DNA of 36,103 bases from contig QHRU01000140.1 of the NCBI GenBank assembly GCA_003220225.1, forward strand, positions 1 through 36,103. The letters are read 5' to 3'. Of the stretch, positions 4,756 through 34,357 are shown piece by piece. A program made the translations under genes and the position numbers. A model generated the notes under the pieces. That model did not search any database. It was not told the DNA's origin and saw only the letters and a program-made list of their open reading frames with translations. How positions within the stretch are numbered: the stretch's first letter is position 1; each line of letters starts with the position of its first letter. This stretch comes from Candidatus Rokuibacteriota bacterium. GTDB lineage: Bacteria > Methylomirabilota > Methylomirabilia > Rokubacteriales > CSP1-6.

Positions 4756-6735
4756 ATGTGCGGGATCGCCGGTAAGGTCTACCTGGAGCCGCATCGCGGC
4801 GTCGAGCCCGACGCCCTCGCCGCGATGTGCCAGGCGCTCGTCCATCGGGGTCCCGACGACTACGGGGTTCACCTCGACGGCAACGTCGGCCTGGCCATGC
4901 GGCGCCTGGCCGTGATCGACGTCGACACCGGCCGGCAGCCGATTCACAACGAGGACCGGAGCGTCTGGACGGTCTACAACGGCGAGATCTACAACTTCGC
5001 GGAGCTGCAGCGCGAGCTCGAAGCCCGGGGTCATCGCTTCTACACGCGCACGGATACGGAAGTCATCGTTCATCTCTACGAGGAGCAGGGCCTCGACTTC
5101 GTGCGCTCGCTCAACGGCATGTTCACCATCGCGCTCTGGGACGCCGCCCGGCGCCGGCTCGTCCTGGCCCGCGATCGGCTGGGGATCAAGCCGCTGTACG
5201 TCGCGCAGCTCCCTGACCGCCTCCTCTTCGGCTCCGAGATCAAGGCGCTCCTCGCCGATGGCCTGCGTCCGACGGTGGACGTCGAGGCGCTCAGCCTCTA
5301 CCTGTCGCTGCTCTACATCCCGGCTCCGCACACGATCTACCGGGAGATCCGCAAGCTCGAGCCCGGCCATCTTCTGGTCTGGCAGGGCGGGCGGCTCACC
5401 GACCACCGCTACTGGGACCTCGCGGAGATTCGACCGGCCGCACGCGACCTCCGTCCGGCTGCGGTGTCGGCGCAGCTCCTGGACCTCCTCACGGACGCCG
5501 TGCGACGGCAGCTGGTCTCGGACGTTCCCCTCGGCGTCTTCCTGAGCGGCGGGCTCGACTCGAGCACCGTCGTCGCGCTGACGCGGCGGGTCCACTCCGG
5601 CGCCGTCAAGACGTTCTCGATCGGCTTCGACGATCCGTCGTACGACGAGCGCGCGGCGGCCCGGCTCATCGCCCGGCGATTCGAGACGGACCACACCGAG
5701 CTGACCATCACGCCCGACGTCGCCGACCTCGTCCCGAAGCTCGTGAGCCACTTCGACGAGCCATTCGCCGACGCCTCCGCGATCCCGACCTACTATCTCT
5801 CGCAGCTCACCCGACGCCACGTGACGGTCGCCCTCGGCGGGGACGGGGGCGACGAGCTCTTCGCGGGCTACGTCACCTACCAGGCCGACAAGCTCGCGCG
5901 GCTGTACGAGCGGCTGCCGGGGCTGCTCACGCGCGGACTCATTCCTGCGGTGGTGCGGCGGCTGCCGGTCTCCGAGGGCAAGGTCAGCTTCGACTTCAAG
6001 GCGAGACGCTTCATCGCCGACGCGCTGCTGGAGCCGGGACGCCGGCACTACGCGTGGAAGGCCTTCTTCGACGACAGCCTGAAGCGGGACGTCCTGTGCG
6101 ACGACGTCCTCGCCGGTCTCGATGGCCGTCTCGACGCCTTCCCGGTCTACCGCCGCCATTACGACGAGGTCCCTCACCACGACCCGCTCAATCGATTTCT
6201 CTACGCCGACACGCGGGTCTACCTGCCCGACGACATCCTCGTGAAGGTCGACCGCATGAGCATGGCCCATTCCCTCGAGGTCCGCGTGCCCCTGCTCGAC
6301 CACCGGGTCGTGGAGTTCATGTTCCGCCTTCCCGGCGTACTCAAGATGCCCGGCCTGGCGCTGAAGCACGTGCTGAAGCGGACGATGCGTGGCCTCCTGC
6401 CCGACGAAACCCTCCGCAAGCGCAAGGGCGGGTTCAACGTCCCGATGTCCGCCTGGCTCAAGCAGCAGCTCCGGCCGCTCGTCGACGAATACCTGTCCCC
6501 GGCCCGCGTACGGCGCGACGGGTTCTTCCGGCCCGAGACGACGTCGCGGCTGGTGGTGGAGCACATGACCGGCCGCGCCGACTACAGCCGCAACCTGTGG
6601 GCGCTCTTGCTCTTCGGCGTGTGGCTCGAGCAGGCACGGACCTCCGGAGCGAGCGCGGCGACGTCAGCCATCGCGGCGGGACTGACACCATCCTTCGCCC
6701 TGTGCGCCCCCGCCACAGGTGTGATCCGCGGATGA
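4756..6735 (+). CDS. asnB: Asparagine-synthase-like glutamine amidotransferase 1
   Basis: 659 residues from ATG, 3 bp after the NusG-like gene. It begins MCGIAGK, so the class II glutaminase nucleophile is Cys2; HRGPDD (30-35) and YNGEIYN (74-80) complete the glutaminase site. The synthetase half has the PP-loop SGGLDSS (264-270) and later GGDGGDELFAGY. The core is collinear with AsnB. The last 30 or so residues are a low-complexity Ala/Ser-rich tail ending at the overlapping start of the next gene. In polysaccharide loci, related enzymes amidate uronic acids (WbpS type), and XrtA loci carry such amidotransferases. With UDP-ManNAcA genes close by, uronamide formation is more likely than asparagine supply, but this is inference. 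Confidence 0.88.
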   Translation: MCGIAGKVYLEPHRGVEPDALAAMCQALVHRGPDDYGVHLDGNVGLAMRRLAVIDVDTGRQPIHNEDRSVWTVYNGEIYNFAELQRELEARGHRFYTRTDTEVIVHLYEEQGLDFVRSLNGMFTIALWDAARRRLVLARDRLGIKPLYVAQLPDRLLFGSEIKALLADGLRPTVDVEALSLYLSLLYIPAPHTIYREIRKLEPGHLLVWQGGRLTDHRYWDLAEIRPAARDLRPAAVSAQLLDLLTDAVRRQLVSDVPLGVFLSGGLDSSTVVALTRRVHSGAVKTFSIGFDDPSYDERAAARLIARRFETDHTELTITPDVADLVPKLVSHFDEPFADASAIPTYYLSQLTRRHVTVALGGDGGDELFAGYVTYQADKLARLYERLPGLLTRGLIPAVVRRLPVSEGKVSFDFKARRFIADALLEPGRRHYAWKAFFDDSLKRDVLCDDVLAGLDGRLDAFPVYRRHYDEVPHHDPLNRFLYADTRVYLPDDILVKVDRMSMAHSLEVRVPLLDHRVVEFMFRLPGVLKMPGLALKHVLKRTMRGLLPDETLRKRKGGFNVPMSAWLKQQLRPLVDEYLSPARVRRDGFFRPETTSRLVVEHMTGRADYSRNLWALLLFGVWLEQARTSGASAATSAIAAGLTPSFALCAPATGVIRG

Positions 6736-11615: not shown

Positions 11616-13559
11616 GTGCCACCTATTAATCTCTTGAAGTTCTTGCCCGTCCTCGCCGAGGGAGGGACGGAAGGCCAGGTGATGAACCTGGTCGACCGGC
11701 TCGATCTCTCGAAATTCGCCGTCCGCTTCGCCTGCTTCAATCGCACCGGCCGGTTCCTGCCGTTCCTCGAGGCGCGCGGCATCCCGGTGACGCCGTACGC
11801 CATCAAGCGCTTCTACGATCTGAGAGCGCTGCGGCAGCAGGCGCGGCTGGCGAACGACATACGCCGGCACCGCGTCGACATCGTTCACAGCTACAACTTC
11901 TACGGCAACGTGTTCGCCGTCCCGGCCGGCCGGCTCGCCCGCATGCCCGTCGTGGTGGCATCCATCCGCAGCATGGGCGAGATGTACACGCCGCTTCAGC
12001 GGCGCGTGCACCGATACGTCTGCCGCCTGGCGGACTGCGTTCTGACGAACGCCGAGGCGATCCGACAGTCGCTCGTCGCCGAGGGGTACGACGCCGCGAA
12101 GATCAGGGTGATCCGCAACGGCATCGACGTCAGAAGCCTCCGAGGCACGGCGGACGGTGGGCCGCGATTCCGGCTGGCCTTCGCGCTACCGGCGGACGCT
12201 CCGATCGTCGCGGTGCTGGCGCGGCTCGGCACCATCAAGGGTCTCGAGTACTTCCTCGAAGCCGCCGTCGGCGTCGCCCAGCGCTTCCCGCGCGCGCGCT
12301 TCGCGCTGGTGGGCGGTGGGACGTTCATCAAGGACGGCCGTAAGGAGCCGCGCGACTACCGGCGCGAGCTGGAGGCGATGGCGCGGCGTCTGGGGCTTGA
12401 GGGGCGCGTCGTCTTCACCGGGGTACGGAACGACGTCGCGGACGTCCTGTCCCAGGTGGCGGTCTCGGTGCTGCCCTCGCTCAGCGAGGGCATCCCCAAC
12501 ACCGCGCTCGAGTCCATGGCCGCCGGCGTCCCCGTCGTGGCCACACGGGTCGGAGGCATTCCGGAAGCCGTCGAGGACGGGGCCACCGGCCTGCTGGTCG
12601 CTCCGCGCGACCCGGCGGCTCTGGCCCGGGCCATCGGTCTGGTGCTCGAGGACCGTGACCTCGCCTGGCGGCTCGGCCAGGCCGGCCGAGAGCGGGTCAT
12701 CCAGCATTTCGGGCTCGACGACATGGTGCGACAGACCGAGGCCCTCTACGCCAGCCTGCTCGAACGTCGCCGTGCGACGGGCTCGCTGGCGCCCCGGCCT
12801 CAGGAGGCCCGTCCGTCGCTAGGCCGCGGTGACGGGAGGAGTCATCCCATCCCTCGAAGCATTTACCACGTGTTCGCCGACGCACGGCGACCGGGAGAGG
12901 AGTTCGTAATGGAGGCAAAGCCGCTGACTCGTACAGCGCCGATGCAGGAACACATCGACCGCGCGGTCCACGATCTCCTCGCGTCGTGCCCGGATCCGGA
13001 ACGGCTCACTGCCGACGAACGGCGCGGGATCATCGCGCGCTACAGCGCCGTGCTCGAAGGCAACTTCATCTACTGGATGACCGGCGCCTACCTCGCGGTC
13101 GCGTCGGCGGAAGCCCACGCGATCATCCAGGACAACCTTCGGGAAGAGGTCCGAGACAACCATCCAGGGATGCTGCGAAGGTTCGCCATCGCCGCTCACG
13201 CCGTTCCCACGGATCTGGATTCGTTCGCCGTCTATCGGCATCTCGAGAACGTCCGCCGCTTCGTGGGACAGCTGTCGGCCGTCAAGATCGTGCTCATGAT
13301 GGCCTTCTTCGAAGGCTTCATCACGCGCTTCATGCCCTATCTGGCGGACCTCGCCAAGCGGCAGGGCTCGTCGGAGTACGAATACACGGACGTCCACGGC
13401 GTCTGCGACGTCGTCCACACGCAAGAGCTCTTCCGCGCGCTCGAGGCCGAGATGGCGCTCGCGCCCGACCTCGAGCCGGAGCCGAAGCTGCTCACGGGCG
13501 TCGAGCTCCTTCGAGCACTGATCCAACGCATCATCACCACGGGCGTCGGGGGGTCATGA
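11616..13559 (+). CDS. GT4 glycosyltransferase, in one open frame with a diiron-oxidase-like domain
   Basis: GTG start with AGGAG 8 bases upstream (11603-11607). Residues 1 to about 390 are a GT-B, family 4 glycosyltransferase: FLPVLAEGGTEGQVMNLVDR near the N-terminus, HSYNFYGNVFAVPAG, RNGIDV, then the donor-site stretch LPSLSEGIPNTALESMAAG and VVATRVGGIPEAVEDG. It would add a nucleotide-activated sugar to the lipid-linked repeat unit. No stop codon follows the domain: about 40 Arg/Pro-rich residues lead straight into the haem-oxygenase-like protein that starts at Met432. The frame encodes 647 residues in all, far beyond the family's usual 370-400. A real fusion, a lost stop codon, or a sequencing indel near 12780-12820 (which would bring in a TAG at 12820) are all possible. 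I favour two functional proteins, with the second also starting at 12909. Confidence 0.8.
   Translation: MPPINLLKFLPVLAEGGTEGQVMNLVDRLDLSKFAVRFACFNRTGRFLPFLEARGIPVTPYAIKRFYDLRALRQQARLANDIRRHRVDIVHSYNFYGNVFAVPAGRLARMPVVVASIRSMGEMYTPLQRRVHRYVCRLADCVLTNAEAIRQSLVAEGYDAAKIRVIRNGIDVRSLRGTADGGPRFRLAFALPADAPIVAVLARLGTIKGLEYFLEAAVGVAQRFPRARFALVGGGTFIKDGRKEPRDYRRELEAMARRLGLEGRVVFTGVRNDVADVLSQVAVSVLPSLSEGIPNTALESMAAGVPVVATRVGGIPEAVEDGATGLLVAPRDPAALARAIGLVLEDRDLAWRLGQAGRERVIQHFGLDDMVRQTEALYASLLERRRATGSLAPRPQEARPSLGRGDGRSHPIPRSIYHVFADARRPGEEFVMEAKPLTRTAPMQEHIDRAVHDLLASCPDPERLTADERRGIIARYSAVLEGNFIYWMTGAYLAVASAEAHAIIQDNLREEVRDNHPGMLRRFAIAAHAVPTDLDSFAVYRHLENVRRFVGQLSAVKIVLMMAFFEGFITRFMPYLADLAKRQGSSEYEYTDVHGVCDVVHTQELFRALEAEMALAPDLEPEPKLLTGVELLRALIQRIITTGVGGS
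12893..12902 (+). promoter_or_regulatory. Strong internal ribosome binding site
   Basis: GGGAGAGGAG lies 6 bases before ATG 12909, inside the long frame shared with the glycosyltransferase. Its strength and spacing argue that the downstream domain is translated on its own. Confidence 0.65.
12909..13559 (+). CDS. Haem-oxygenase-like diiron oxidase/oxygenase (HDO; DUF3865/CADD-like)
   Basis: 216 residues from ATG with a strong ribosome binding site. The all-helical sequence shows the full HDO ligand pattern: Glu50 in VLEGNF, Glu79/Glu80 and His85 in NLREEVRDNHPGML, Glu135 in FFEGF, and His163, Asp167 and His170 in DVHGVCDVVH. Family knowledge: members (UndA, BesC, SznF-type and Chlamydia CADD) use a two-metal site and O2 for decarboxylation, N-oxygenation, C-C cleavage or self-sacrificing pABA formation. 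The substrate here is unknown. The frame is joined in phase to the glycosyltransferase upstream, and its stop overlaps the start of the acyl carrier protein, which hints at an acyl- or aminoacyl-ACP substrate. The family call is by motif from memory; which HDO subfamily it belongs to is uncertain. Confidence 0.75.
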   Translation: MEAKPLTRTAPMQEHIDRAVHDLLASCPDPERLTADERRGIIARYSAVLEGNFIYWMTGAYLAVASAEAHAIIQDNLREEVRDNHPGMLRRFAIAAHAVPTDLDSFAVYRHLENVRRFVGQLSAVKIVLMMAFFEGFITRFMPYLADLAKRQGSSEYEYTDVHGVCDVVHTQELFRALEAEMALAPDLEPEPKLLTGVELLRALIQRIITTGVGGS

Positions 13560-13816
13560 TGGCGACGACGGTGTCGGTGCGGTCCACGGTCACCGCTCGG
13601 TTCGCCGAGGTCGCCAGAGAGCAAAAGAAGACGCTGGCGCCGCTGGCCGACGATCTCGTGCTGCTTGACTCGGGCCTCGACTCTCTCTGCCTGGCCATCA
13701 TCGTCGCTCGGCTCGAGGATGCGCTGGGAACCGACCCGTTCAGCTCAGGCAGCGCTGCCGAGTTTCCCGTGACGCTGGGCGACTTCATCAGGCTCTACGA
13801 AGATGCCGCGCCGTAA
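13556..13816 (+). CDS. Acyl carrier protein
   Basis: 86 residues from ATG 13556; a second ATG follows at once at 13559, and both overlap the stop of the diiron enzyme (ATGATG). The carrier motif is LLDSGLDSLCLAIIVARLE, where Ser43 is the expected phosphopantetheine site. The protein is short, acidic and helical, about the size of a stand-alone ACP or PCP. It would carry an acyl or aminoacyl thioester for the neighbouring enzymes. The following ligase is the obvious loading enzyme. No ketosynthase, thioesterase or phosphopantetheinyl transferase is visible in the window. The last 26 codons are part of a repeat that reappears downstream of the P450 gene. Confidence 0.82.
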   Translation: MMATTVSVRSTVTARFAEVAREQKKTLAPLADDLVLLDSGLDSLCLAIIVARLEDALGTDPFSSGSAAEFPVTLGDFIRLYEDAAP

Positions 13817-13934
13817 TTGGGGCTCACTGTGGAGTCCCGTGAGGGCCGTGGAGTACCCCGACCGCACTCGTTGCGGCGCGGATGCGAGCGTCCCAGTGGG
13901 CAATCTGCTTCGACACGTGAATCTCAGCGGTCGG
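13712..13934 (+). repeat. Direct repeat, copy A (ACP 3' end plus ligase 5' fragment)
   Basis: This segment aligns with 15281-15504 downstream of the P450 gene. Identical blocks include the 16-mer at 13794-13809, TGCGCTGGGA at 13720-13729 and CTGTGGAG at 13827-13834. Hand alignment of the ligase part gives about 104 matches in 150 bases. The ligase part has one 3-base gap, and the ACP part has two single-base gaps. Copy A holds the intact ACP end and a truncated start of the ligase gene. Confidence 0.85.
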
Positions 13935-13955
13935 GTTGCCGAGAAAGTCAGCTGA
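13803..13955 (+). pseudogene. Truncated 5' fragment of the acyl-AMP ligase gene
   Basis: A 50-codon frame, starting at an ATG inside the end of the ACP gene and ending at TGA 13953-13955, translates to a diverged copy of the N-terminus of the ligase at 15358. Shared landmarks are MP near the start, GSLWS, DR, GADASV, then L..GR and E. After about codon 45 the similarity fades, and the P450 gene begins at 13981. It covers about one tenth of the ligase and lacks every adenylation motif, so it cannot be active. It is best explained as the remnant of an ancestral ACP-ligase junction interrupted by the P450 insertion. Confidence 0.75.
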
Positions 13956-13980
13956 CGTGGCGTCCGGAGGCAGAAAAGAG

Positions 13981-15273
13981 ATGACAGCCAGACGCGGCCA
14001 GATCCCACCAGGACCGGAAGAGGAGTACAGCACGACTCAAGAGCTTTTGGACTGGCTGGGCCATCAGTTCAAGCAATTCGGAGACATCTATAAAGCGTCG
14101 ATCTACGGCACCAGCGTGTACGTGATCAGTGACCCGCAGTACACGCAGCACGTACTCGTCGAAAACTGGCAGAACTACGTGAAGGGGCAGGCCATCAAAC
14201 GTGTTGCCTTACTTCTCGGCAATGGCCTCATGGTGAGCGAGGGCGAGTTTTGGAAAAGTCAGCGGCGGATGATCCAACCCGCGTTCCACCGCAAAGCGAT
14301 TGGCGCCTTGATCAAGGTCATGACAACAGCCAACAGCGTGCTGCTGAAGAAATGGGAGGAGGCAGCGCGAAAGCGAGAGAGTGTTAACGTCACCCACGAC
14401 GTCAGCCACATGGTCCTCGAGGTGGTGCTCGTTTCCATCTTTGGAGACGACTACGAGCAGGTCAGCTCGCATTTCAATCTCCTCTCCGAAGAGTCGGCGC
14501 GCAACATGGAGTTCGCCGGTGCGTTCAGATCTTTGGGAAAGATCATCCTGCAGGTTGCCGACCGAAGGCGGAAAGAACACGCCACGTTCACCGACATTCT
14601 TGGCATGCTCATGGAGACGCGCGACCAGCACAGCGGCCAAGCGATGCCGGATCGCCAACTGATCAACGAGGTCATGACCCTCATTGTCGCCGGACACGAA
14701 ACCACTGCCAGCGTCTTGAACTGGACCTGGTATTTGATTTCCCAGCACCCCGACGTCGAGGAGAAGCTGTCGAACGAACTCAACAACTTCCTCGGGAGCG
14801 AGTTCCCTGAGCTTGACGATCTGGCGAGATTCGCCTATACGCGGCAGATCATCGAAGAGTCGCTGCGCTTGTATCCAGCCGGCTGGCTGATGACGCGCAA
14901 GGCGCTGAAAGACGACTACCTCGGTGACTATTTCGTTCCCGCCGGAACCGAAATTTATATTCCACCCTACTTCGTCCAGCGGCACCCTTCCCTCTGGGAG
15001 GATCCGGATCGCTTCAATCCAGATCGCTTTAGTCCCGAGCATTCACAGGATCGACATCGGCGAGCGATGTTTCCTTTCTCCGCGGGCCCGAGATACTGCA
15101 TCGGCGAGTCATTCGCCCGGATGGAGATGCAGATCCATGTAATGATGATCGCCAAGCAGCTGCGGCTGCGGTACGTTCAAACAAGGCCGCTCGAGCTCGA
15201 CGCCGGCGTCAATTTGCGCAACAAATATGATTTCATCATGACCCCTGAACTCAAAGGGATAGCAGATCGCTGA
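13981..15273 (+). CDS. Cytochrome P450
   Basis: 430 residues from ATG 13981, with GGAGG at 13966-13970; an in-frame TTG at 13936 would start inside the repeat and is rejected. It has the I-helix oxygen-activation motif AGHETTAS (237-244), the K-helix ExxR as EESLR (292-296), a PERF-like DPDRFNPDRF, and the haem loop FSAGPRYCIG with Cys373 as thiolate ligand. It has no membrane anchor and no fused reductase, so it needs separate ferredoxin or flavodoxin partners, none of which are in the window. The fatty-acid-hydroxylase-like flavour (CYP4/CYP102/CYP110 relatives) fits an acyl-chain substrate near the ACP, but this is inference. The gene is clearly poorer in GC (about 50-57% in sampled lines) than its neighbours (about 70%) and lies between direct repeats, so it looks acquired. 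Confidence 0.93.
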   Translation: MTARRGQIPPGPEEEYSTTQELLDWLGHQFKQFGDIYKASIYGTSVYVISDPQYTQHVLVENWQNYVKGQAIKRVALLLGNGLMVSEGEFWKSQRRMIQPAFHRKAIGALIKVMTTANSVLLKKWEEAARKRESVNVTHDVSHMVLEVVLVSIFGDDYEQVSSHFNLLSEESARNMEFAGAFRSLGKIILQVADRRRKEHATFTDILGMLMETRDQHSGQAMPDRQLINEVMTLIVAGHETTASVLNWTWYLISQHPDVEEKLSNELNNFLGSEFPELDDLARFAYTRQIIEESLRLYPAGWLMTRKALKDDYLGDYFVPAGTEIYIPPYFVQRHPSLWEDPDRFNPDRFSPEHSQDRHRRAMFPFSAGPRYCIGESFARMEMQIHVMMIAKQLRLRYVQTRPLELDAGVNLRNKYDFIMTPELKGIADR

Positions 15274-15280
15274 TTCCGCT

Positions 15281-15357
15281 CTCGCAGCTGCGCTGGGAGT
15301 TGATCCGCTCAGTGCCTCCGAAAATGCTGACTAACTGTGACCAGGGGCCACTTCATC
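15281..15357 (+). pseudogene. Relic of an acyl carrier protein 3' end
   Basis: Translation of 15281-15327 gives an ALGVDPLS-like stretch matching ALGTDPFS of the ACP (residues 56-63 there), then a stop. One base out of frame, VTRGHFI matches VTLGDFI. Only about 30 codons are represented, and the frame is broken, so this is not a gene. Its position directly after the P450 mirrors the ligase fragment before the P450. Confidence 0.7.
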
Positions 15358-15504
15358 ATGTCTACGAAGATGCCGCACACTGACGGCGGCTCGCTGTGGA
15401 GCACCTTGAGCGCCGCGGGGCACCGTTCCGACCGCGCTCTCTGGGGAGCCGATGCGAGTGTCACTTTGAGCGATCTGGTCCGGGGGTCGAGTCTCGGAGG
15501 TCGG
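15281..15504 (+). repeat. Direct repeat, copy B (broken ACP 3' end plus ligase 5' end)
   Basis: Second copy of the segment at 13712-13934. It begins 8 bases after the P450 stop. The first part (15281-15357) matches the ACP 3' end, and the rest is the true start of the ligase gene. The 16-mer at 15361-15376 is identical to 13794-13809. Copy B thus has the complementary content: damaged ACP, intact ligase. Confidence 0.85.
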
Positions 15505-16770
15505 CTCGAGGAACTCCGCGGGTGCTCAGTACTCGTCACGACCAGGGATCAGCTCTCGGCGGCGCTGGCCCTCATCGAGCTCGATGCCGTCGCGCGCCGA
15601 CTCGTTCTCTGCCCTCCCGATCTGCCTGCCGAGCATCTGCCATTCGTGGCGGCGACGGCGGCGGTGGATGCACTCGTGTCCGATCAGACGGCACCCCGCG
15701 GTGGGGCTCCAGGGATTGGAACCGTCGTTACGTGCACCCCGAAGATCGCGCCGGCAGCCCGCGAGCGGACGGAACGATACCAGACGGAATGGATCCTCCT
15801 GACGTCCGGGACGACGGGCCGGCCGAAGATGGTCGTGCACACGCTGGCGAGCCTCTCGGGAGCGATGCGCGGCGGGAGGTCGCCGGGCGACCCTGCCGTG
15901 TGGAGCACGTTCTACGACATCCGACGGTATGGCGGCCTGCAGATCTTCCTGCGCGCGCTCCTCGGCGGAGGCTCGATGGTGCTGTCCAGCGCCCAGGAGT
16001 CGACCGCGGACTTCCTGATCAGAGCCGGCGCGCACGGCGTCACCCACATCTCCGGGACGCCCTCCCATTGGCGGCGCGCCCTTATGAGCCCGTCCGTACG
16101 ACGGATCACGCCGCGATACGTCCGGCTGTCGGGAGAGATCGCGGACCAGGCCATCCTCGACCATCTCCGGGCCTTCTTCCCGAACGCCGGCATCACCCAT
16201 GCCTTCGCGTCGACGGAGGCGGGTGTGGCCTTCGACGTCGGTGACGGCCTCGCGGGCTTTCCGGCGAGCCTGATCGGGCGGCAGAACGCGGACGTGGAGA
16301 TGAAAGTCGAAGACGGCTCGCTCCGTATCCGTTCCGCGCGCACGGCGAGCCGCTACCTGGGCCACGAGGACGGTCCGCTCGCCGACCGCGACGGCTTCGT
16401 CGACACGGGCGACATGCTCGAACGCCGCGGCGACCGCTATCACTTCGTCGGCCGTCGAGGCGGGATCATCAACGTCGGCGGCTCGAAGGTTCACCCGGAG
16501 GAAGTCGAGGCCGTCATCAATGGCCATCCTCACGTGAGGATGTCGCTCGTGCGGACGCGAAAGAATCCCATCACGGGCGCGCTCGTGGTCGCCGACGTCG
16601 TGCTGAGGGAGGAGCCCGAGGCCGCGAACGGACGGGTGGCGGAGCTCGAGCACGAGATCATGCAGCGCTGTCGCGAGACGCTAGCCCGGCACAAGGTACC
16701 GGCGGCGATTCGCTTCGTGTCGGCCCTGGCCGTGACGCCCAGCGGCAAATTGGTGCGTCACGATGCGTAA
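15358..16770 (+). CDS. Acyl/aryl-AMP ligase (ANL superfamily)
   Basis: 470 residues from ATG with AGGGG at 15343-15347; an in-frame GTG at 15337 lies in the ACP relic and is less likely. The ATP loop is LLTSGTTGRPK (147-157). Later come the A5-like FASTEAG, the A7/A8 region GFVDTGDMLERRGDRYHFVG and GGSKVHPEEVE, and the C-terminal catalytic lysine Lys464 in PSGKLVRH. The N-terminal part is short for the family (about 470 residues against 500-550). Family knowledge: ANL enzymes adenylate a carboxylic acid and pass it to CoA or a carrier protein. Its place one gene from the ACP in the ancestral order suggests it loads that ACP. The substrate is unknown; the divergent acid pocket prevents a guess. 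It overlaps the next gene by 8 bp. Confidence 0.88.
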   Translation: MSTKMPHTDGGSLWSTLSAAGHRSDRALWGADASVTLSDLVRGSSLGGRLEELRGCSVLVTTRDQLSAALALIELDAVARRLVLCPPDLPAEHLPFVAATAAVDALVSDQTAPRGGAPGIGTVVTCTPKIAPAARERTERYQTEWILLTSGTTGRPKMVVHTLASLSGAMRGGRSPGDPAVWSTFYDIRRYGGLQIFLRALLGGGSMVLSSAQESTADFLIRAGAHGVTHISGTPSHWRRALMSPSVRRITPRYVRLSGEIADQAILDHLRAFFPNAGITHAFASTEAGVAFDVGDGLAGFPASLIGRQNADVEMKVEDGSLRIRSARTASRYLGHEDGPLADRDGFVDTGDMLERRGDRYHFVGRRGGIINVGGSKVHPEEVEAVINGHPHVRMSLVRTRKNPITGALVVADVVLREEPEAANGRVAELEHEIMQRCRETLARHKVPAAIRFVSALAVTPSGKLVRHDA

Positions 16771-17497
16771 CGTGATCGTGACGGGCGGCAGTCGCGGCCT
16801 GGGTCTGGGCCTCGCTCGCCGGCTCACCCGAGCCGGCTATCGCGTCATCGCGCTCGCCCGGAAGGAGACCAACCAGCTGACGCTGGCGATGGAGGAGGCC
16901 GAGCGCGCCCACCCCGGATCGTTCCACTTCGTGCCGTTCGATCTGGCCGAGACCGCGGCGATTGCCACGCTCGTCAAGTCGCTGCGCAACGCGCACGGGC
17001 CGATCTACGGGCTGGTCAACAACGCCGCCGTCGGGTTCGACGGCGTGCTCGCTCTCATGCCCAACGCGCAGATCGAGCAGCTCGTCCGGATCAACACGCT
17101 CTCGCCCATCGTCCTGACGAAATACGTGGTGCGCGCCATGATGGCCGACGGCGGCGGGCGGATCGTCAACGTCGCGTCGATCGTCGGCTTCACCGGATAC
17201 AGCGGCCTCTCGGTGTACGGCGCGACCAAGGCCTCGATGCTCGGCTTCACGCGCTCGCTGGCGCGCGAGGTCGGGCGCATGGGCGTGACCGTGAACTCGA
17301 TCGCCCCCGGTTTCCTGGACACCGACATGACGCATGGACTCGACGACGAGCACCGCCAGCAGATCGTGCGGCGCAGCGCGCTGCGCCGCCTCCCGGAGGT
17401 CGACGACGTGGCGGGCGCCGTCGAGTTCCTGCTCGGCGACGCGGCGAAGAGCATCACGGGCACCGTGCTCACGGTCGACGCGGGCAACACGGCATGA
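16763..17497 (+). CDS. Short-chain dehydrogenase/reductase, FabG-like
   Basis: 244 residues; the ATG is 8 bp inside the ligase gene. It is a classical SDR: cofactor motif TGGSRGLG (7-14), NNA at 86-88, and catalytic Ser139, Tyr152 and Lys156 (YGATK). The ending ITGTVLTVDAGNTA is the typical FabG-type C-terminus. It probably reduces a beta-keto or other carbonyl group on a carrier- or CoA-bound substrate, using NADPH, in the cytoplasm. Translational coupling to both the ligase and the next acyl-CoA synthetase (ATGA at 17494) ties it to acyl metabolism. No ketosynthase is present to make a beta-ketoacyl chain, so the substrate may come from housekeeping fatty-acid synthesis or be an alcohol or ketone made by the P450 or diiron enzyme. 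Confidence 0.88.
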   Translation: MRNVIVTGGSRGLGLGLARRLTRAGYRVIALARKETNQLTLAMEEAERAHPGSFHFVPFDLAETAAIATLVKSLRNAHGPIYGLVNNAAVGFDGVLALMPNAQIEQLVRINTLSPIVLTKYVVRAMMADGGGRIVNVASIVGFTGYSGLSVYGATKASMLGFTRSLAREVGRMGVTVNSIAPGFLDTDMTHGLDDEHRQQIVRRSALRRLPEVDDVAGAVEFLLGDAAKSITGTVLTVDAGNTA

Positions 17498-24579: not shown

Positions 24580-25677
24580 ATGACCCACCGCGTGAGCCGC
24601 ATCCGCCCGTTCGTCCTCGGCGACGTTCCGCGCGTTGCCGAGTTGCACGAGAGCATTCTGGGCGGGAGCCGTCGCCTCAGCATGGAGAACCGACGACGGT
24701 ATCTCGGCAAGGTGTTTCTCGAGAACCCCTGGTACGACGACACCCTGCCGTCCTTGGTCGCCGAAGAAGGACACGGCCGTATCGTCGGATTCCTCGGAGT
24801 GCTCCCGCGAAGGATGTCGTGGAACGGGCGGTCCATCAAGGTCGCGATCGGCTCGCAGTACATGGTCGAGCCTCACTATCGCGGTCTCACGGGACTGCTC
24901 TTGCAGAAGGCGTTCCTGTCCGGCCCTCAGGATCTCTCAATGACGGACGGCGCCAGCCACGAGTCGGTCAAGCTCTGGAAAGCCGTCGGCGGCACCGACT
25001 CGCCACTGCACAGCATCCACTGGACACGTCCGCTCCGCCCGCTGCGCTACGGCCTCTCTCTCGTGAGCCCGCACGCACCGCTGGCGGCAGCCGCCGCCGC
25101 GCCGTTCTGTGCCGTCCTCGACGCGGTCGCCACGCGCCTGCGCCGGAGCCCTTTGCGGCCCACGACGTCAGCGTCGGGAGAGGAGCTGACGGTCGACGCG
25201 ATCGTGGACTACTCGCAGCAGTTCCTCCAGGGCGCCGCCCTCCGACCCGAGTACGACCGCGGATCGTTGAAGTGGCTGCTCGAGATGGCCGACCAGAAGG
25301 TGTCGTCGGGGGAGCTCCGCAAGGTGCTCGTCCGCAACGCCGACGCCGAGATCATCGGCTGGTATCTCTACTACCTCCGGGCGGGCGGCAACAGTGAAGT
25401 CCTCCACGTCGCCGGTCGGCCCGATCACCTCGGTGCGGTGCTCGACCATCTCTTCTACGGCGCGTGGCGCGACGGCGCGACCGCGGTGTCCGGGAGGCTC
25501 GAGCCGAGGTTCTTCGACGAACTCCGGGCCCGGCACTGCCTGTTCCACGGCCGCGGATCCCCCGTGCTCGTCCACTCGCGCCGGCGCGAGCTGGTCGACG
25601 CCGTCCAGCGCGGCAACGCGCTGGTCTCGCGACTCGATGGCGAGTGGTGGATGTGCTTCCAGGATGGTGGGAGCTGA
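24580..25677 (+). CDS. GNAT-family acyltransferase (double-domain)
   Basis: 365 residues from ATG, 6 bp after the Cys-rich gene. The N-terminal half (about 1-145) is a GNAT fold: RIRPFVLGDVPRVAELHESI, IVGFLGVLPRRM, and the acyl-CoA loop VEPHYRGLTGLLLQKAF. The C-terminal half looks like a second, degenerate GNAT-like domain (VLVRNADAEIIGWYLYYL, then LDHLFYGAWRDGATAVSG). Such two-domain proteins occur in polysaccharide and lipid loci and acylate amino groups. It lies at the boundary between the metabolite module and the second half of the polysaccharide locus. It could N-acylate an amino sugar or the amine expected from the decarboxylase. I cannot choose between them. The next gene starts 2 bases after its stop. 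Confidence 0.72.
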   Translation: MTHRVSRIRPFVLGDVPRVAELHESILGGSRRLSMENRRRYLGKVFLENPWYDDTLPSLVAEEGHGRIVGFLGVLPRRMSWNGRSIKVAIGSQYMVEPHYRGLTGLLLQKAFLSGPQDLSMTDGASHESVKLWKAVGGTDSPLHSIHWTRPLRPLRYGLSLVSPHAPLAAAAAAPFCAVLDAVATRLRRSPLRPTTSASGEELTVDAIVDYSQQFLQGAALRPEYDRGSLKWLLEMADQKVSSGELRKVLVRNADAEIIGWYLYYLRAGGNSEVLHVAGRPDHLGAVLDHLFYGAWRDGATAVSGRLEPRFFDELRARHCLFHGRGSPVLVHSRRRELVDAVQRGNALVSRLDGEWWMCFQDGGS

Positions 25678-25679
25678 CC

Positions 25680-27587
25680 ATGTGCGGAATCAGCGGCGTT
25701 CTCGAGCTCGATCCGCGACGTCGACCGTCCCGCGAGGGCCTGCATCGGATGGCCGAAGTCCTGAGCCATCGGGGTCCGGACGAGGAGGGATTCTACGAGT
25801 GCGGACCCGTGGCATTCGCGCACCGGCGGCTGAGCATCATCGACCTGGCGGGCGGCCAGCAGCCGATGGAGACGCCGGACGGCCAGGTGTGCGTCAGCTA
25901 CAACGGCGAGATCTACAACTACCCGGAGCTGAAAACCGAGCTCGAGCAGCGGGGCCACGTGTTCCGCACCCGGTCGGATACGGAAGTGCTCCTTGCGCTC
26001 TACGTCCACGAAGGGCTCGAGGCCTTCGCGCGGCTCAACGGGATGTTCGCGTGCGCGTTCTGGGACCGCCGGGCGTCCCGGCTGGTCCTCGTGCGCGACC
26101 GTCTCGGCAAGAAGCCCCTGTTCTATTACCGGGACGCTCAGCGCGTGCTGTTCGCCTCGGAGATCAAAGCCCTGCTGGCGTTCGGGGGCGTCGAGCGCAC
26201 GGTCAATCTCCGGGCGCTGCACGAGTACCTCGCCTACGGCTATATCGTCGGCGAGCAGGCCATCCTCGAGGGCGTGCATCGCGTGGAGCCCGGTGAGACC
26301 GTGGTCGTCCACGCCGGGCACGTGAGCCGCCGGCCGTACTGGCGGCTGCGCTTCGAGCCGTCCCCGCGCCCGCCCGGCGAGGCCGAGGCGACCGAGCAGG
26401 CCACCCAGCTGCTGCGCCAGGCGGTCAGGCGGCGAATGATCAGCGACGTCCCGCTCGGCGCCTTTCTGAGTGGCGGGCTCGACTCCAGCACCGTCGTGGC
26501 GCTCATGGCGGAGCTCTCGTCGCGCCCCGTGAAGACGTTTTCCATCGGCTTCGAGGAAACGGACTACTCGGAGCTCGAGGATGCTCGCCGCGTGGCACGC
26601 CACCTGGGCACCGATCACCACGAGATGATCGTCAAGCCGGCAGCGCTCGACGTCCTGCCCGATCTCGTCTGGCATCTCGACGAGCCGTTCGCGGACTCCT
26701 CCGCGCTCGCCACGTATTACGTGTGCCAGGCGGCTCGGCAGCACGTCACGGTGGCGCTTTCCGGAGACGGCGGTGACGAGGTGTTCGCGGGCTACGTGCA
26801 ATACCAGCAGCTGGACCAGTGGCGCCGGCTGCGTCGGATCCCGGGCTGGATCCGCCGCGGCGTGCTGCCGTCACTCAGTCGCGCGGTGCCGTTCACCTGG
26901 CCGGGCTGGAACGCCGTGTATGCGGCCGGCCGACTCGGGGACGACGGAATCGCGCCGAACGTGGGCGTCTACCCGTACATCCGCGACCAGCTCGTCACGG
27001 ACGAACTCATGGCCCAGCTCGACGGATACGATCCGTTCGAACGCTCGCGGCGGCTGACGCGGGAGGCCGGACGGCTCGACCCCGTCAGCCGCTCGCAATA
27101 CCTCGACACGCTCCAGTACCTGCCGGCCGACATCCTCACGAAGGTCGACCGGATGAGCATGGCCAACTCATTGGAGGTGCGGGCGCCCCTGCTCGACTAC
27201 ACGCTGGTGGAGTACGTGGCGACCCTGCCCGTCTCCCTCAAGCTGCGCGGGACGCTGAGCAAGTATCTGCTCCGGAAGGTCGGCGAACGGCTGCTGCCCG
27301 CCGCCACGCTGACGAAGGCCAAGCAGGGCTTCGGCATTCCGAAAGATCTCTGGTTCCGGAAGACGCTCCGGCCCTTCGCGGAGGAGATCCTGCTCGACCG
27401 GCAGAGTCTCGCGCGCGGCTATTTCCGCAAGGACGCCCTGACGCGCATGCTGCGCCACCATGCGACGGGCCGGCGCGATTACAGCACGTGGATCTGGTCG
27501 TTGATCGTGCTGGAGACGTGGTGCCGTCTCTTTCTCGACGCTCCCGCGGCCGGAGTCGCCGGCGCGTGGCGGGGCCCGCGCGGATGA
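25680..27587 (+). CDS. asnB: Asparagine-synthase-like glutamine amidotransferase 2
   Basis: 635 residues from ATG. Cys2 (MCGISGV) is the glutaminase nucleophile, with HRGPDEEGF and YNGEIYN (74-80). The PP-loop is SGGLDSS at 264-270, and the synthetase site continues with LSGDGGDEVFAGY and the ILTKVDRMSMANSLEVRAPL block. It differs from amidotransferase 1 at many positions and lacks that protein's Ala-rich tail, so it is an older paralogue and not a recent copy. Probable role: ATP-dependent amidation of a carboxyl group, perhaps on a different uronic acid or at a later step. It is co-translated with the flippase gene (ATGA at 27584), which points to a polysaccharide rather than amino-acid role. 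Confidence 0.88.
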   Translation: MCGISGVLELDPRRRPSREGLHRMAEVLSHRGPDEEGFYECGPVAFAHRRLSIIDLAGGQQPMETPDGQVCVSYNGEIYNYPELKTELEQRGHVFRTRSDTEVLLALYVHEGLEAFARLNGMFACAFWDRRASRLVLVRDRLGKKPLFYYRDAQRVLFASEIKALLAFGGVERTVNLRALHEYLAYGYIVGEQAILEGVHRVEPGETVVVHAGHVSRRPYWRLRFEPSPRPPGEAEATEQATQLLRQAVRRRMISDVPLGAFLSGGLDSSTVVALMAELSSRPVKTFSIGFEETDYSELEDARRVARHLGTDHHEMIVKPAALDVLPDLVWHLDEPFADSSALATYYVCQAARQHVTVALSGDGGDEVFAGYVQYQQLDQWRRLRRIPGWIRRGVLPSLSRAVPFTWPGWNAVYAAGRLGDDGIAPNVGVYPYIRDQLVTDELMAQLDGYDPFERSRRLTREAGRLDPVSRSQYLDTLQYLPADILTKVDRMSMANSLEVRAPLLDYTLVEYVATLPVSLKLRGTLSKYLLRKVGERLLPAATLTKAKQGFGIPKDLWFRKTLRPFAEEILLDRQSLARGYFRKDALTRMLRHHATGRRDYSTWIWSLIVLETWCRLFLDAPAAGVAGAWRGPRG

Positions 27588-29122: not shown

Positions 29123-30327
29123 ACGCCCGGCCCAGGATGAGGCCCGCCTTCGTGGAGACGCCGGCCGACGACACGATCGTGGTGCAGCGGATCGAGGACA
29201 CGGCGACCTTCCAGACACTGCGCCAGGAATGGAACGAGCTGCTGCAGGCCAGCGCGTCCAACTGCGTGTTTCTCACCTGGGAATGGCTCTTCGCGTGGTG
29301 GCGCAACCTGTCCGAGGGCCGTCGTCTGTCGCTGATCACCGTGCGCCGAGGCGGCCGGCTCATCGCGATCGCGCCGCTGGCCGTGCGTCCACGCTCGTTG
29401 AGCCGTCTGCTGCCGTGGCCGTCGCGGGAGTTCCTGGGGACCGGCCTTGCCGGCTCCGACTATCTCGACGTGATCGTCCGGCGCGGTCACGAGCGCGAGG
29501 GGCTGGCGGCCGTGGCGGACGCGCTCGCCGCCGCAGGGGCCGTCCTGGAGCTCAGCCACGTTCCCGCGAACGTCAGCGCCGCCGCGCAGCTCGCCGGCGA
29601 CCTCGCGCGGCGGCTAGGCTGGACCGCCTCGGCCTCCAGGATCAACGTCTGCCCCTTCATCAAGTTGTCCGGCCACTCCTGGCCGTCGTACCTGGCCTCG
29701 CTCGGCTCCGCCCACCGGTACAACGTTCAGCGGCGACTCAAGAACCTGACGAAGCAGTTCGACGTCCGTTTCGAGCAGGCGACCTCGGAGGAGCAGCGCC
29801 GCGAGGCGCTGGAGCTGCTCATCGACCTCCACAACCGGCGCTGGAGCGAGCGCGGGGGGTCGCAGTCGTTCGCCACCGCCGCGCTTCGCGCGTTCTACGA
29901 CGACGTGAGCCGATCAGGCCTCGAGCGCGGCTGGCTGCGGCTCTTCATCCTCCGGCTGGATGGACGACCGGCGGCGGCGCTCCATGGCTACCAGTACGGC
30001 GGGGTGTTCTCCTTCTACCAGGCCGGCTTCGATCCCGCGTTCGCCAAGCAGAGCGTCGGGTTGGTCACGATGGCGCTGGCGATCAAGAGCGCGATCGAGG
30101 AGGGCGCCGACGAGTACGACCTGCTCCACGGCGACGAGCCGTACAAATACCAGTGGGCCGACAAGACGCGTGACCTCGAGCGGATCGAGCTGTTCTCGCC
30201 ATGCGTGCGAGGGCAACTCTCCCGCCAGGCGCTGGGTCTCAGCCGCATCGTCCGGCGGATGGGTCGTCGCGTCTTCGGCAACGCCCTCGCCGACTGGATC
30301 GTCGTGGCGGCGGCCCTCAGCGAGTAA
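29119..30327 (+). CDS. FemAB/BioF2-like GNAT acyltransferase
   Basis: 402 residues from GTG (GTGA overlap); ATG 29137 is an alternative. The sequence matches the acetyltransferase group related to FemAB and the Gly-charging enzymes: FLTWEWLFAWWRNLSEG (about 54-70), LGTGLAGSDYLDVIV, a central SAHRYNVQRRLKNL, LIDLHNRRWSERGG, FSFYQAGFDPAFAKQSVG, then DLLHGDEPYKYQWAD. The FDPAF...S.G and HG.E.YK.. elements are the family's diagnostic ones. Such proteins are common in exopolysaccharide and XrtA loci and transfer acyl or aminoacyl groups, probably to sugar amines. It is soluble by sequence. Two GNAT-type genes in one locus suggest two different acyl decorations. Confidence 0.82.
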   Translation: MNARPRMRPAFVETPADDTIVVQRIEDTATFQTLRQEWNELLQASASNCVFLTWEWLFAWWRNLSEGRRLSLITVRRGGRLIAIAPLAVRPRSLSRLLPWPSREFLGTGLAGSDYLDVIVRRGHEREGLAAVADALAAAGAVLELSHVPANVSAAAQLAGDLARRLGWTASASRINVCPFIKLSGHSWPSYLASLGSAHRYNVQRRLKNLTKQFDVRFEQATSEEQRREALELLIDLHNRRWSERGGSQSFATAALRAFYDDVSRSGLERGWLRLFILRLDGRPAAALHGYQYGGVFSFYQAGFDPAFAKQSVGLVTMALAIKSAIEEGADEYDLLHGDEPYKYQWADKTRDLERIELFSPCVRGQLSRQALGLSRIVRRMGRRVFGNALADWIVVAAALSE

Positions 30328-30336
30328 CGCATCCCC

Positions 30337-31410
30337 ATGACCACGCATATGGGCAGGCAGATCGTCTACTGGCTTCTCGTCCTCAGCGGGCTCGCCTGGC
30401 TTGCCGCCCGTCTGAATCGGCGGAAGGTCCTCGTCCTCGTCTACCACGGCGTCCACGCCGGGTGCGCCGAGCCGTTGCTGAACTTCGACGGAATGCACGT
30501 GCGGGCGAGGCGGTTCGCGCGCCAGATGCAATACGTGTCACGGCGATACCGCGTGGTGGCGCTGGACCGCCTCCTCGAGCCGGGCCAGGCTCCGACACCG
30601 GACCGACCGTGCGCGGTCCTCACGATCGACGACGGGTATCGAAACATCTACCGGGTCGCCTTCCCGATCCTCAAGCGGCTGCGGCTGCCGGCCACCCTGT
30701 TCGTGCCCACGGGTTTCATCCGGGGTGGGCGCGGCTTCTGGTGGGATCGCCTGCGCCTCATCCTCGGCGCCGCGCAACGGCCGACCCTGCGGTTCCGGAT
30801 CGAAGGGACGGAGCGTCTGTTTCCCATTCGCACGGTCGAGGAGCAGCGGGTCACGCTGGCGGCGCTGTCGGACGAGCTACGGCGCCTGCCACGGCCGCGT
30901 CGCGAGGAGGCCCTGTGGTCGCTCGCCACGACGCTCGACGTGCCGCCGGCCGAGGGCGGGACCTTCGCCGAGCCGCTGACGCCCGCCGAGATCCGCGCCA
31001 TGGCCGAGGGTGGCGTCACGATCGGCAGCCACGGGGTCTCGCACGACTCGTTTCTCCTTCTGAGTCGCGACGCGCTGGCGCACGAGTTGACGGAGTCCAA
31101 GCGCCGTCTCGAGCAGTGGACGGGTACGCGCGTGGACTGGCTCGCCTATCCGCACGGCGAGTTCTCCGCCGGCGTCATGAAGGCCGCGCGGCGGGCCGGC
31201 TACCGGGGAGCGGTGACGACGATCGAGGCGCTCAACGACGAGCGCCCCAACCCTTACGCGCTTCGGCGCATCGGCGTGCACGACAACATGACCCTCGCCC
31301 ACTTCATCGTGGCCACGTCGGGACTGCGAGACTTCGTCCTCGGCGTGGTCGCGGCGGGCACGCGGCTCTGGAGTCGCGCGCCGGCTCCGCAGCCTCGCGG
31401 CGTGGCCTGA
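30337..31410 (+). CDS. Polysaccharide deacetylase (CE4 family)
   Basis: 357 residues from ATG. An N-terminal hydrophobic segment (about 8-25) could anchor it. Motif 1 is TIDDGY (96-101), with Asp98 as likely base and Asp99 as metal ligand; the usual Phe is Ile here. Motif 2 is SHGVSH (231-236), with zinc ligands His232 and His236, and the LAYPHGEFS segment (about 269-277) corresponds to motif 3. The insert between motifs is long (about 130 residues), as in the XrtA-associated deacetylase group. Family knowledge: CE4 enzymes remove N- or O-acetyl groups from GlcNAc-type polymers. It would act on the finished or growing polymer, at the periplasmic face if the anchor is real. It precedes the third amidotransferase by 2 bp. 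Confidence 0.88.
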   Translation: MTTHMGRQIVYWLLVLSGLAWLAARLNRRKVLVLVYHGVHAGCAEPLLNFDGMHVRARRFARQMQYVSRRYRVVALDRLLEPGQAPTPDRPCAVLTIDDGYRNIYRVAFPILKRLRLPATLFVPTGFIRGGRGFWWDRLRLILGAAQRPTLRFRIEGTERLFPIRTVEEQRVTLAALSDELRRLPRPRREEALWSLATTLDVPPAEGGTFAEPLTPAEIRAMAEGGVTIGSHGVSHDSFLLLSRDALAHELTESKRRLEQWTGTRVDWLAYPHGEFSAGVMKAARRAGYRGAVTTIEALNDERPNPYALRRIGVHDNMTLAHFIVATSGLRDFVLGVVAAGTRLWSRAPAPQPRGVA

Positions 31411-31412
31411 CC

Positions 31413-33284
31413 ATGTGCGGCATCGCCGGAAAATACCGTCTCGACGGAGCGCCGGTGGATCGGCGGCTCCTCAAGCGCATGGCCGGCGCCATGCTCCACC
31501 GCGGGCCCGACGACGAGGGTTTCTACGTCGACGGACCGTTCGGAATGACCATGCGCCGGCTCTCCATCATCGACCTGGGCGCCGGTCACCAGCCCCTCTG
31601 CAACGAGGACGGCTCGGTCTGGGTCGTGTTCAACGGCGAGATCTACAACTACGTCGAGCTGAGAGACGAGCTGGTCGCGCGCGGGCACCGATTCAAGACG
31701 GCCACCGACACGGAAGTCATCGTGCACCTGTACGAGGACCTCGGCCGCGACTGTGTGCAGCCCCTGCGCGGGATGTTCGGGCTCGCCGTCTGGGACGAGC
31801 GGACGCGGACGTTGCTCCTGGCCCGCGATCGACTGGGCAAGAAGCCGCTCTATTATTCGCTGCGCCCGGGGCGGGCCCTCGTGTTCGCCTCCGAGCTCAA
31901 GGCCCTGCTCGAGGACGCCGCCGTGGAGCGGGACGTCGACGTCGAGGCGCTGGACCGTTACGCCAGCCTGCTCTACGTTCCGTCGCCCGCCTCGATCTTC
32001 CGGGACGTGCGAAAGCTGCCGGCCGGTCACACCCTGGTCTGCACCCCCGAGGGCGCCAGCATCCACCGGTACTGGGACCTCCCGTTGCCCGAGCCGGAGC
32101 CCCGGCCCGACGCGCCCGAACGCTTCCACGAGCTCCTGACCGAGGCCGTCAAGATCCGGCTGCGGAGCGACGTGCCGCTCGGCGCCTTCTTGAGCGGCGG
32201 CGTGGATTCGAGCGCGGTCGTCGCCACCATGGCCAGGCTCCTGAACCGCCCGGTGGTCACGACCTCGATCGGCTTCGACGACGGCGACAGCGAGCTGCCC
32301 TACGCGGCCATGGTGGCGCGTCACGTCGGCAGCGAGCACCACCCACGGATCGTGACGGCGCCGTCGCCGGAGCTGATCGAGCGGCTCGTCTGGCACCTCG
32401 ACGAGCCGTTCGCCGACTCGTCGGCCGTCCCCACGTACTTCGTCTCCATGGCGGCGCGCGAGCACGTCACCGTCGCGCTGTCGGGCGACGGCGGGGACGA
32501 GCTGTTCGCGGGCTACGGCCGGCACCGGGTGGAGGCGCTCGAGCATCGGATCCGACGGGTCCTCGGCCCCCGCGCCGGTCGCGCCGTCGCCCGGGCGGCG
32601 GCGCGGCTGCCGGTCGGCACGAAGGGACGCAACGTCCTCCTCGACGTCGGCCTGCCGGCCGAGGACGGGTGCGCGCGAAAGTTCTATTTCACGCCGGAGG
32701 TGCCGCGGCTCAAGGCGCGGCTCTACAGCGCGTGGCTGCGGGCGGAGACCGAGAAGCTCGATCCCCTCGCGCCGTTTCGCCGTGCGTTCCGGCGCGCCGA
32801 GACGGCCGACGCCGTCAATCGAATCCTCAACGTCGACGTCGCCACGTACCTCTGCGACGACATCCTGGTCAAGGTCGACCGGATGAGCATGGCGCACTCG
32901 CTGGAGGTCCGCGCGCCGCTGCTCGACCACAAGCTCGTCGAGTTCGTCGCGACGCTTCCGGCCGCCTGGAAGCTCAACGGCGGCGGCTCGAAGGTGCTCC
33001 TGCGCTCCGTGCTGGACGGCATGGTCCCGCGCGCGGCGTTCGACCGGCCCAAGCACGGCTTCGTCTCGCCGATCGCCGGCTGGCTGCGCCGGGAGCTGGC
33101 CGGGTACGTCGAGGACACGATCTGCTCCCGCCGGGCCCGCGAGCGCGGCTACTTCGACCCCGCGGGCGTGCGAGCGCTGTGGGCGGCCCATCGCAGCGGG
33201 CAGGCGAACTTCGCGCACGAGATCTGGATGCTGCTCATGCTGGAGCTCTGGCACCGCGCCTTCGTCGACCGCGGGCGCCCCTAG
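31413..33284 (+). CDS. asnB: Asparagine-synthase-like glutamine amidotransferase 3
   Basis: 623 residues from ATG, 2 bases after the deacetylase stop. Cys2 in MCGIAGK, HRGPDDEGF, FNGEIYN (73-79), PP-loop SGGVDSS (261-267) and LSGDGGDELFAGYGRH are all present, so both half-reactions should work. It resembles amidotransferase 1 more than 2 in the glutaminase half (VIVHLYED, LLYVPSPASIFRDVRKL). The Leu of the PP-loop is Val. The C-terminal synthetase half keeps VKVDRMSMAHSLEVRAPLLDH. Like its paralogues it probably amidates a sugar carboxylate, or less likely a metabolite-module acid. All three retain the full set of active-site motifs, which argues for three separate substrates. Confidence 0.9.
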   Translation: MCGIAGKYRLDGAPVDRRLLKRMAGAMLHRGPDDEGFYVDGPFGMTMRRLSIIDLGAGHQPLCNEDGSVWVVFNGEIYNYVELRDELVARGHRFKTATDTEVIVHLYEDLGRDCVQPLRGMFGLAVWDERTRTLLLARDRLGKKPLYYSLRPGRALVFASELKALLEDAAVERDVDVEALDRYASLLYVPSPASIFRDVRKLPAGHTLVCTPEGASIHRYWDLPLPEPEPRPDAPERFHELLTEAVKIRLRSDVPLGAFLSGGVDSSAVVATMARLLNRPVVTTSIGFDDGDSELPYAAMVARHVGSEHHPRIVTAPSPELIERLVWHLDEPFADSSAVPTYFVSMAAREHVTVALSGDGGDELFAGYGRHRVEALEHRIRRVLGPRAGRAVARAAARLPVGTKGRNVLLDVGLPAEDGCARKFYFTPEVPRLKARLYSAWLRAETEKLDPLAPFRRAFRRAETADAVNRILNVDVATYLCDDILVKVDRMSMAHSLEVRAPLLDHKLVEFVATLPAAWKLNGGGSKVLLRSVLDGMVPRAAFDRPKHGFVSPIAGWLRRELAGYVEDTICSRRARERGYFDPAGVRALWAAHRSGQANFAHEIWMLLMLELWHRAFVDRGRP

Positions 33285-33295
33285 GTCGGCTCACC

Positions 33296-34357
33296 GTGCG
33301 CCCCAACGCCAACAAGGTGCTCATCGTCGGCAACTACCCGCCGCCCTACGGAGGGCTGTCCGTGCAGGTGTCGGTGCTCCACGGCTTGCTCGCGGGCAGC
33401 CATGGCTACGCGTGCCGCGTCCTCGACATCGGCGAGGGCCGCCGCCAGCGCCGGCCGGAGTGCCTCGGGGCGAGACATGGCCTCGACTTCGCGGCCAAGC
33501 TCCTCTGGCACGCCGCCGGCCAGTGGATCCTTCATCTCCACACGAACGGCCACAACGTCAGCAGCTGGCTGGGTGCGCTGGCCTGTGCGACGGCCGGGCT
33601 GCTCAACGGGCGCAAGACGGTCCTGAGCCTGGGCTCTGGCCTCGCGCCGGACTGGATCCGCGACGCGGGCCCGATCATGCGCGGGGTGGTGCGACTCACG
33701 CTCGCGCTGACGGGCGTCATCGTCTGCCGCAACGCACGCTCGCGCGCCGCCATCGCCGCGCTGGGCGTTCCGGCCGGCAAGATCGTGGTGCTCTCGGGCT
33801 TCTACGGCCTGGGCCCGACCGAGACCACCACGGTGCCGCCGACGGTGGAGGAGTTCCTGAGCGCGCATTCCCCCGTGATCGGCGCCGTCGCGTCGATCGG
33901 GCCCGAGTACGGCCTTCCGCTCGTCGCCGAGGCGGCCGCCCGCCTGCGAAGCGCGTATCCACGACTCGGGCTGCTCCTCATGGGGCCGGCGGGATTCGCG
34001 CGCGCCGACCTCGATGGGAGCCTGCTCGTCGCCGGCCAGCTTCCGCACGACACGACGCTGGCCGTGATGCGGAGACTGAGCGTGTTCGTCCGCCCGACCT
34101 ATTTCGATGGTGACGCGTCGTCGGTGCGCGAGGCCCTCGCCCTCGAGGTGCCCGTGGTCGCCAGCGACACCGACTTCCGGCCGGAGGGCGTGATCGTGTT
34201 CCGGCGCGGGCACGTCGACGATCTCACCGACAAGCTCGCCCAGACACTCGGCGCCGGACGTTCCCGGCCGCGACCCGGGCCGGCAGATGCCGGCTCGTGG
34301 CCTCGTGTTCTCGCGATCTACGAGCGGCTGTCGCTCAAGGGAGACCTCGCATGCTGA
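33296..34357 (+). CDS. Glycosyltransferase family 4 protein
   Basis: 353 residues from GTG. It has a GT-B layout: an N-terminal VLIVGNYPPPYGGLSVQV (about 9-26), LHLHTNGHN, then a second Rossmann half with GAVASIGPEYGLPLVAEAAARL and the donor-binding region SVFVRPTYFDGDASSVREAL followed by LEVPVVAS. The Glu of SVREAL corresponds to the conserved retaining-GT4 position. The usual EGxP is replaced by YFDGDASS, a common variant in capsule enzymes. It is shorter than the transferase at 11616 and lacks the extension found there. It would add one sugar to the lipid-linked repeat unit on the cytoplasmic side. The gene overlaps the next one by 7 bp. Confidence 0.8.
   Translation: MRPNANKVLIVGNYPPPYGGLSVQVSVLHGLLAGSHGYACRVLDIGEGRRQRRPECLGARHGLDFAAKLLWHAAGQWILHLHTNGHNVSSWLGALACATAGLLNGRKTVLSLGSGLAPDWIRDAGPIMRGVVRLTLALTGVIVCRNARSRAAIAALGVPAGKIVVLSGFYGLGPTETTTVPPTVEEFLSAHSPVIGAVASIGPEYGLPLVAEAAARLRSAYPRLGLLLMGPAGFARADLDGSLLVAGQLPHDTTLAVMRRLSVFVRPTYFDGDASSVREALALEVPVVASDTDFRPEGVIVFRRGHVDDLTDKLAQTLGAGRSRPRPGPADAGSWPRVLAIYERLSLKGDLAC

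Follow-up and report, generated by a model that had tools for sequence, protein, structure and literature searches.

The window analyzed here is a whole contig of 36,103 bp from a draft genome of 6.03 Mb, and it contains a conserved gene set encoding a haem-oxygenase-like protein, an acyl carrier protein (ACP), an AMP-forming ligase, a FabG-like reductase, FadD-like, sulfhydrylase-like, and MetA-like proteins, and a PLP decarboxylase. The first gene of this cluster encodes a haem-oxygenase-like (Haem_oxygenas_2-type) protein at 12870–13559 (this and all features up to the reductase lie on the forward strand), whose hit to Pfam PF14518 (E 3.5e-6) is slightly under the cut-off and which has orthologues at 67–75% in the family clusters. 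Its coding region makes up the 3′ portion of an extended open frame (11616–13559; 647 aa without a stop) with Pfam matches for both a glycosyltransferase and the haem-oxygenase-like domain; the gene is separate in relatives, and the long frame represents either a fusion or a coincidence of frame. An intact 86-aa ACP follows at 13556–13816 (PP-binding Pfam score 21.8 against a cut-off of 20.8; 68–79% to most family ACPs). The intact AMP-forming acyl/aminoacyl ligase occupies 15358–16770 (AMP-binding E 1.3e-18, AMP-binding_C E 1.4e-12; 60–77% to family orthologues), and the FabG-like short-chain reductase, which Pfam identifies and which comes after the ligase in most relatives, lies in the same operon at 16763–17497. 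Genes for the FadD-like acyl-CoA ligase, the O-acetylhomoserine sulfhydrylase-like PLP enzyme, the MetA-like acyltransferase, and the PLP decarboxylase start at 17494, 19370, 20700, and 21720, respectively. A search of open papers found nothing on the product of this cluster. Amid polysaccharide genes, the window also contains three open frames resembling asparagine synthetase (glutamine-hydrolysing) (4756–6735, 25464–27587, and 30201–33284) and a carbamoyltransferase-like gene (34297–36078), all named from their translations only.

Between the ACP and the ligase, the operon contains a gene for an intact cytochrome P450 of 430 aa (13981–15273). The Pfam p450 domain (PF00067, E 1.3e-79) covers most of the protein, and the translation contains the haem-cysteine motif FSAGPRYCIG (FxxGxRxCxG), EESLR (ExxR), and AGHETT (AGxET). 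A GGAGG at 13966–13970, 10 nt before the ATG at 13981, is its likely ribosome-binding site. Both sides of the gene carry remains of the genes found whole on the other. To the left, the whole ACP overlaps the start of a truncated, decaying ligase open reading frame (13803–13955), which begins with an ATG inside the ACP end, has one in-frame 3-nt deletion, and stops after 50 codons at a TGA (13953–13955). To the right, alignment identifies a frameshifted ACP 3′ end of approximately 35 codons (15272–15357), now the leader of the whole ligase. Open reading frames, Pfam matches, and alignment thus agree with the initial annotation that each gene is whole on one side of the P450 and truncated on the other.

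The initial annotation had also aligned 13712–13934 with 15281–15504, and local alignment extends these direct copies of the ACP-ligase junction to 13712–13952 and 15281–15519, the upstream copy being recovered by repeat search as well. The alignment score of 83.5 (match 1, mismatch −1) compares with a mean of 13.6, a standard deviation of 2.1, and a maximum of 23.5 in 1000 first-order shuffles, and a second scoring gave 106 against a shuffle maximum of 35. Chance similarity was ruled out by these scores, which are 3–4 times the best of 1000 shuffles; the lack of significant similarity that the initial annotation had named as contrary evidence is not what the alignment gives. The earlier hand count of about 104/150 matches in the ligase part was close to the computed value (90 of 134 bases identical over 13819–13952), and the 16 identical bases reported at 13794–13809 and 15361–15376 match exactly. 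Direct repeats on both sides of an insert, with each gene whole once and truncated once, are the features expected of a single-crossover integration scar.

Such a scar should have an uninterrupted target in relatives, and this target is present. At least eight related family clusters (L019, L020, L023–L027, and L031) have the ACP-ligase overlap without a P450, with the ligase ATG inside the last ACP codons as in GAAGATGCC, which bears out the ancestral overlapping operon that had been read from the window alone. This overlap coincides exactly with the 16 bases that the two window copies share, TCTACGAAGATGCCGC. Because ACP coding constrains one copy and the ligase start constrains the other, their identity needs no recent exchange; the block is the coding overlap of two genes and not necessarily the mark of a crossover.

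To assign the differences between the copies, ten family orthologues were used as reference. In the ligase part, 36 of 44 differences are derived in the truncated copy and six in the intact ligase, with two unassigned. Changes in the truncated copy are spread evenly over the three codon positions (14/9/13), and 5/6 of those in the intact ligase fall at third positions. First and second positions differ at 25/89 sites between the copies versus 8/91 between the window ligase and that of L031. This codon-position contrast is weak on its own (Fisher p 0.08 versus nine orthologues pooled and 0.048 versus L031 alone), and the argument for decay is based on the polarized count of 36 versus 6. With a branch of 0.43, the ligase relic lies near the value of 0.31 obtained for third positions of the intact ligase. 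In the ACP part, changes in the downstream relic occur at all codon positions, and a loop of the intact ACP has changed as well. The initial annotation had attributed the divergence of roughly 30% either to a donor from a related cluster or to an old event. Since 36 of the 44 ligase-part differences arose in the truncated copy, a reading of this divergence as donor distance was rejected and a related-cluster donor is unneeded to account for it; the old event is the better of the two alternatives, and the divergence is mostly decay after that event.

The P450 originated outside the window's family. No homologue above approximately 36% identity was found in 99 relatives, including all 57 family genomes, and a scan of genome contigs recovered homologues at 53–71% identity in five Acidobacteriota MAGs and one Bradyrhizobium, the nearest, from Acidobacteriota and Bradyrhizobium, at 65–71%. 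All six (L043–L048) are in or beside homologous cluster genes, and the clusters with the 65–71% homologues contain DUF, ACP, ligase, SDR, FadD, MetY-like, and MetA-like genes; flanks unrelated to ACP and ligase, which the initial annotation had named as counter-evidence, were not encountered. Their P450s belong to the same clade as that of the window, but none lies between ACP and ligase: that of L043 precedes the haem-oxygenase-like gene, that of L045 sits immediately ahead of the ACP-ligase pair, and those of L044, L046, L047, and L048 follow the MetA-like gene. Flanking junction copies were not detected in these six clusters. The window P450 groups with those of L045, L044, and L047 (tree support 93/97), and a search for further P450 carriers in 396 genomes from the phylum to which L045 belongs returned only that of L045 itself. 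The GC content of the window gene is 0.563 versus approximately 68%, and its GC3 is 0.735, compared with 0.83–0.93 for its neighbors and 0.61–0.69 for its P450 relatives, a composition consistent with an older import that has partly adapted. These distributions point to a mobile accessory gene of an uncharacterized cluster common to Acidobacteriota, Bradyrhizobium, and the window's family. In L047 (3638–4850), the P450 match is in two pieces without residues 101–123 and with a change of frame, reflecting either a broken gene or an assembly error.

We consider an insertion of the P450 gene with duplication of the junction to be very well supported, with a probability of about 0.9. A P450 that serves the same cluster type in other phyla would have been acquired by an ACP-ligase operon within the window's family, and the event would have duplicated approximately 240 bp of the junction, placing direct repeats on either side of the gene. 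With the ACP whole on the left and the ligase whole on the right, the pathway would have kept both functions and gained a P450, and the spare ligase start on the left and spare ACP end on the right would have decayed neutrally afterwards. Judging from its neighbors only, the enzyme probably oxidizes an ACP-bound or released product. The event itself may most likely have been the integration, by a single crossover, of a small circularized fragment carrying the P450 and a within-family junction segment, much as the initial annotation had proposed; nearly as likely would be an illegitimate insertion that duplicated the native junction. We place the circle slightly ahead because the geometry (approximately 240 bp duplicated, a one-gene insert) is that of a precedent in E. 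coli. When a small, non-replicating, cut plasmid was conjugated into E. coli, 56/60 integrants had a partial duplication of the target, and the 14 duplications sequenced (109–950 bp) were explained by trimming, recircularization, and one crossover; only four integrants came from homology-facilitated illegitimate events, a type that leaves deletions (PMC3240628). The window resembles these Campbell-type integrants in that an insert lies between short direct target duplications of comparable length, but it differs in that the E. coli experiment used a known plasmid of identical homology as donor, whereas the event in the window is old and no donor was found. A P450 beside a within-family ACP-ligase junction, as the donor would have it, is present in none of the 57 family genomes. 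Against the circle is also the ACP relic, which is without its first 50 or so codons and would require either a further deletion or a donor that had already lost this part, and the relics are too short for their placement to separate a within-family donor from a native duplication. For the whole chain of P450 entry, a within-family circle, a single crossover, and later decay, we estimate roughly even odds.

Placement of the relics on a fixed tree, with only approximately 100 (ACP) and 135 (ligase) bases, bears on the competing explanations. Placed separately, the two relics have different best positions. For the ligase relic, the best position is the branch of the window's own ligase (RELL 0.55, AU 0.91), with many other branches compatible, and for the ACP relic it is within the window's family; as one unit they fit several branches, including the window's own (AU 0.57 in the joint test of these short relics). 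The position of the ligase relic agrees with a short tandem duplication or staggered-end insertion, in which the window's own junction would have been doubled while illegitimate or inter-chromatid joining captured the P450 fragment; both relics would then be native, and donor homology would have played no part. This explanation makes a donor junction and a circle unnecessary, accords with a ligase relic divergence near the neutral expectation, and has a parallel in transformation, which can make tandem duplications by inter-chromatid joining after uptake of a small fragment (PMC3784515), although those merodiploids span approximately 100–900 kb between existing repeats, compared with approximately 240 bp and a foreign gene at the joint in the window. 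However, the ligase relic shares no base exclusively with the window ligase, and the ACP relic is closer to L023/L025 than to the window ACP, a difference that is not significant; overall we regard a native duplication as possible but doubtful. The differing best placements are also what a linear donor with the order P450-ACP-ligase might produce, through a homologous joint on the right and an illegitimate one on the left, leaving a native ligase relic and a donor ACP relic. L045 has that order, and lies in the P450 subclade nearest that of the window, but its ACP does not match the ACP relic: L043 and L045, the acidobacterial P450 carriers, were rejected as its source (AU 0.008 for both). Such events also usually leave deletions rather than duplications (PMC3240628), and a linear donor appears quite unlikely.

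The same genome contains a second cluster on contig C1 and an ACP-SDR pair on contig C157, which raises the prospect of a fusion between two paralogous clusters or cluster copies with deletion of the DNA between them. As relic sources, however, the C1 copy (L022, AU 0.016 in the joint test), the branch of L019, a relative of L022 in the same genus (AU 5.7e-6), and L028/L029-type tips (AU below 0.004) were all rejected, in trees without the C157 pair (L032), which was aligned, and we judge such a fusion very improbable. The GC step at the P450 borders could likewise suggest a transposon, a cassette, or an assembly artefact. Transposon insertion was rejected, as neither terminal inverted repeats nor a transposase was found at the P450 ends; no second gene lies between the relics, ordinary target duplications are far shorter than the one seen here, and a misjoin is at odds both with decayed relics on the two sides and with the kinship of the P450 to genes of the same cluster type. 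We give this group of explanations next to no weight.

The locus is a true, well-preserved, and old recombination scar, formed by an ordinary mechanism rather than by a novel type of system; a search of the open literature found no comparable scar in a biosynthetic cluster. It shows the entry of a tailoring gene between two overlapping, translationally linked genes, neither of which was broken: the duplication provides the overlap a second time, and the extent to which the redundant halves have decayed offers a rough clock. The ACP still overlaps the truncated ligase, whose frame closes at 13955 and leaves 25 nt to the P450 ATG. The intact ligase would be uncoupled from the ACP. Its ancestral start is at 15370, and sequence changes in the ACP relic (derived at the columns of 13775, 13776, and 13791) have produced an AGGGG at 15343–15347 and an in-frame ATG at 15358, a possible new ribosome-binding site and start for the ligase. 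A promoter scan found no sigma-70-like promoter in the segment, and folds of the relic regions were not notable. On its fullest reading, the locus would be a datable natural case of P450 transfer between phyla within one cluster type, in which an accessory gene entered the overlap by one-step duplicative integration with no gene lost and a dead ACP end became the ribosome-binding site and start of the ligase; taken as a whole, this sequence of events is unlikely.

Incomplete copies of the cluster occur in this genome and in another (G054). Within the same genome, the second cluster copy (L022, G000:C1) lacks the ACP and SDR, and the ACP-SDR pair (L032, G000:C157) lacks a ligase. In L023 (G054:C55, 10159–10421), the SDR match ends after approximately 72 residues, the MetY-like gene follows at once, and FadD is missing. 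Another decaying copy, L030 (G054:C250, 8562–10124), has its ligase in two overlapping frames, and only the N-terminal half of its ACP was detected.
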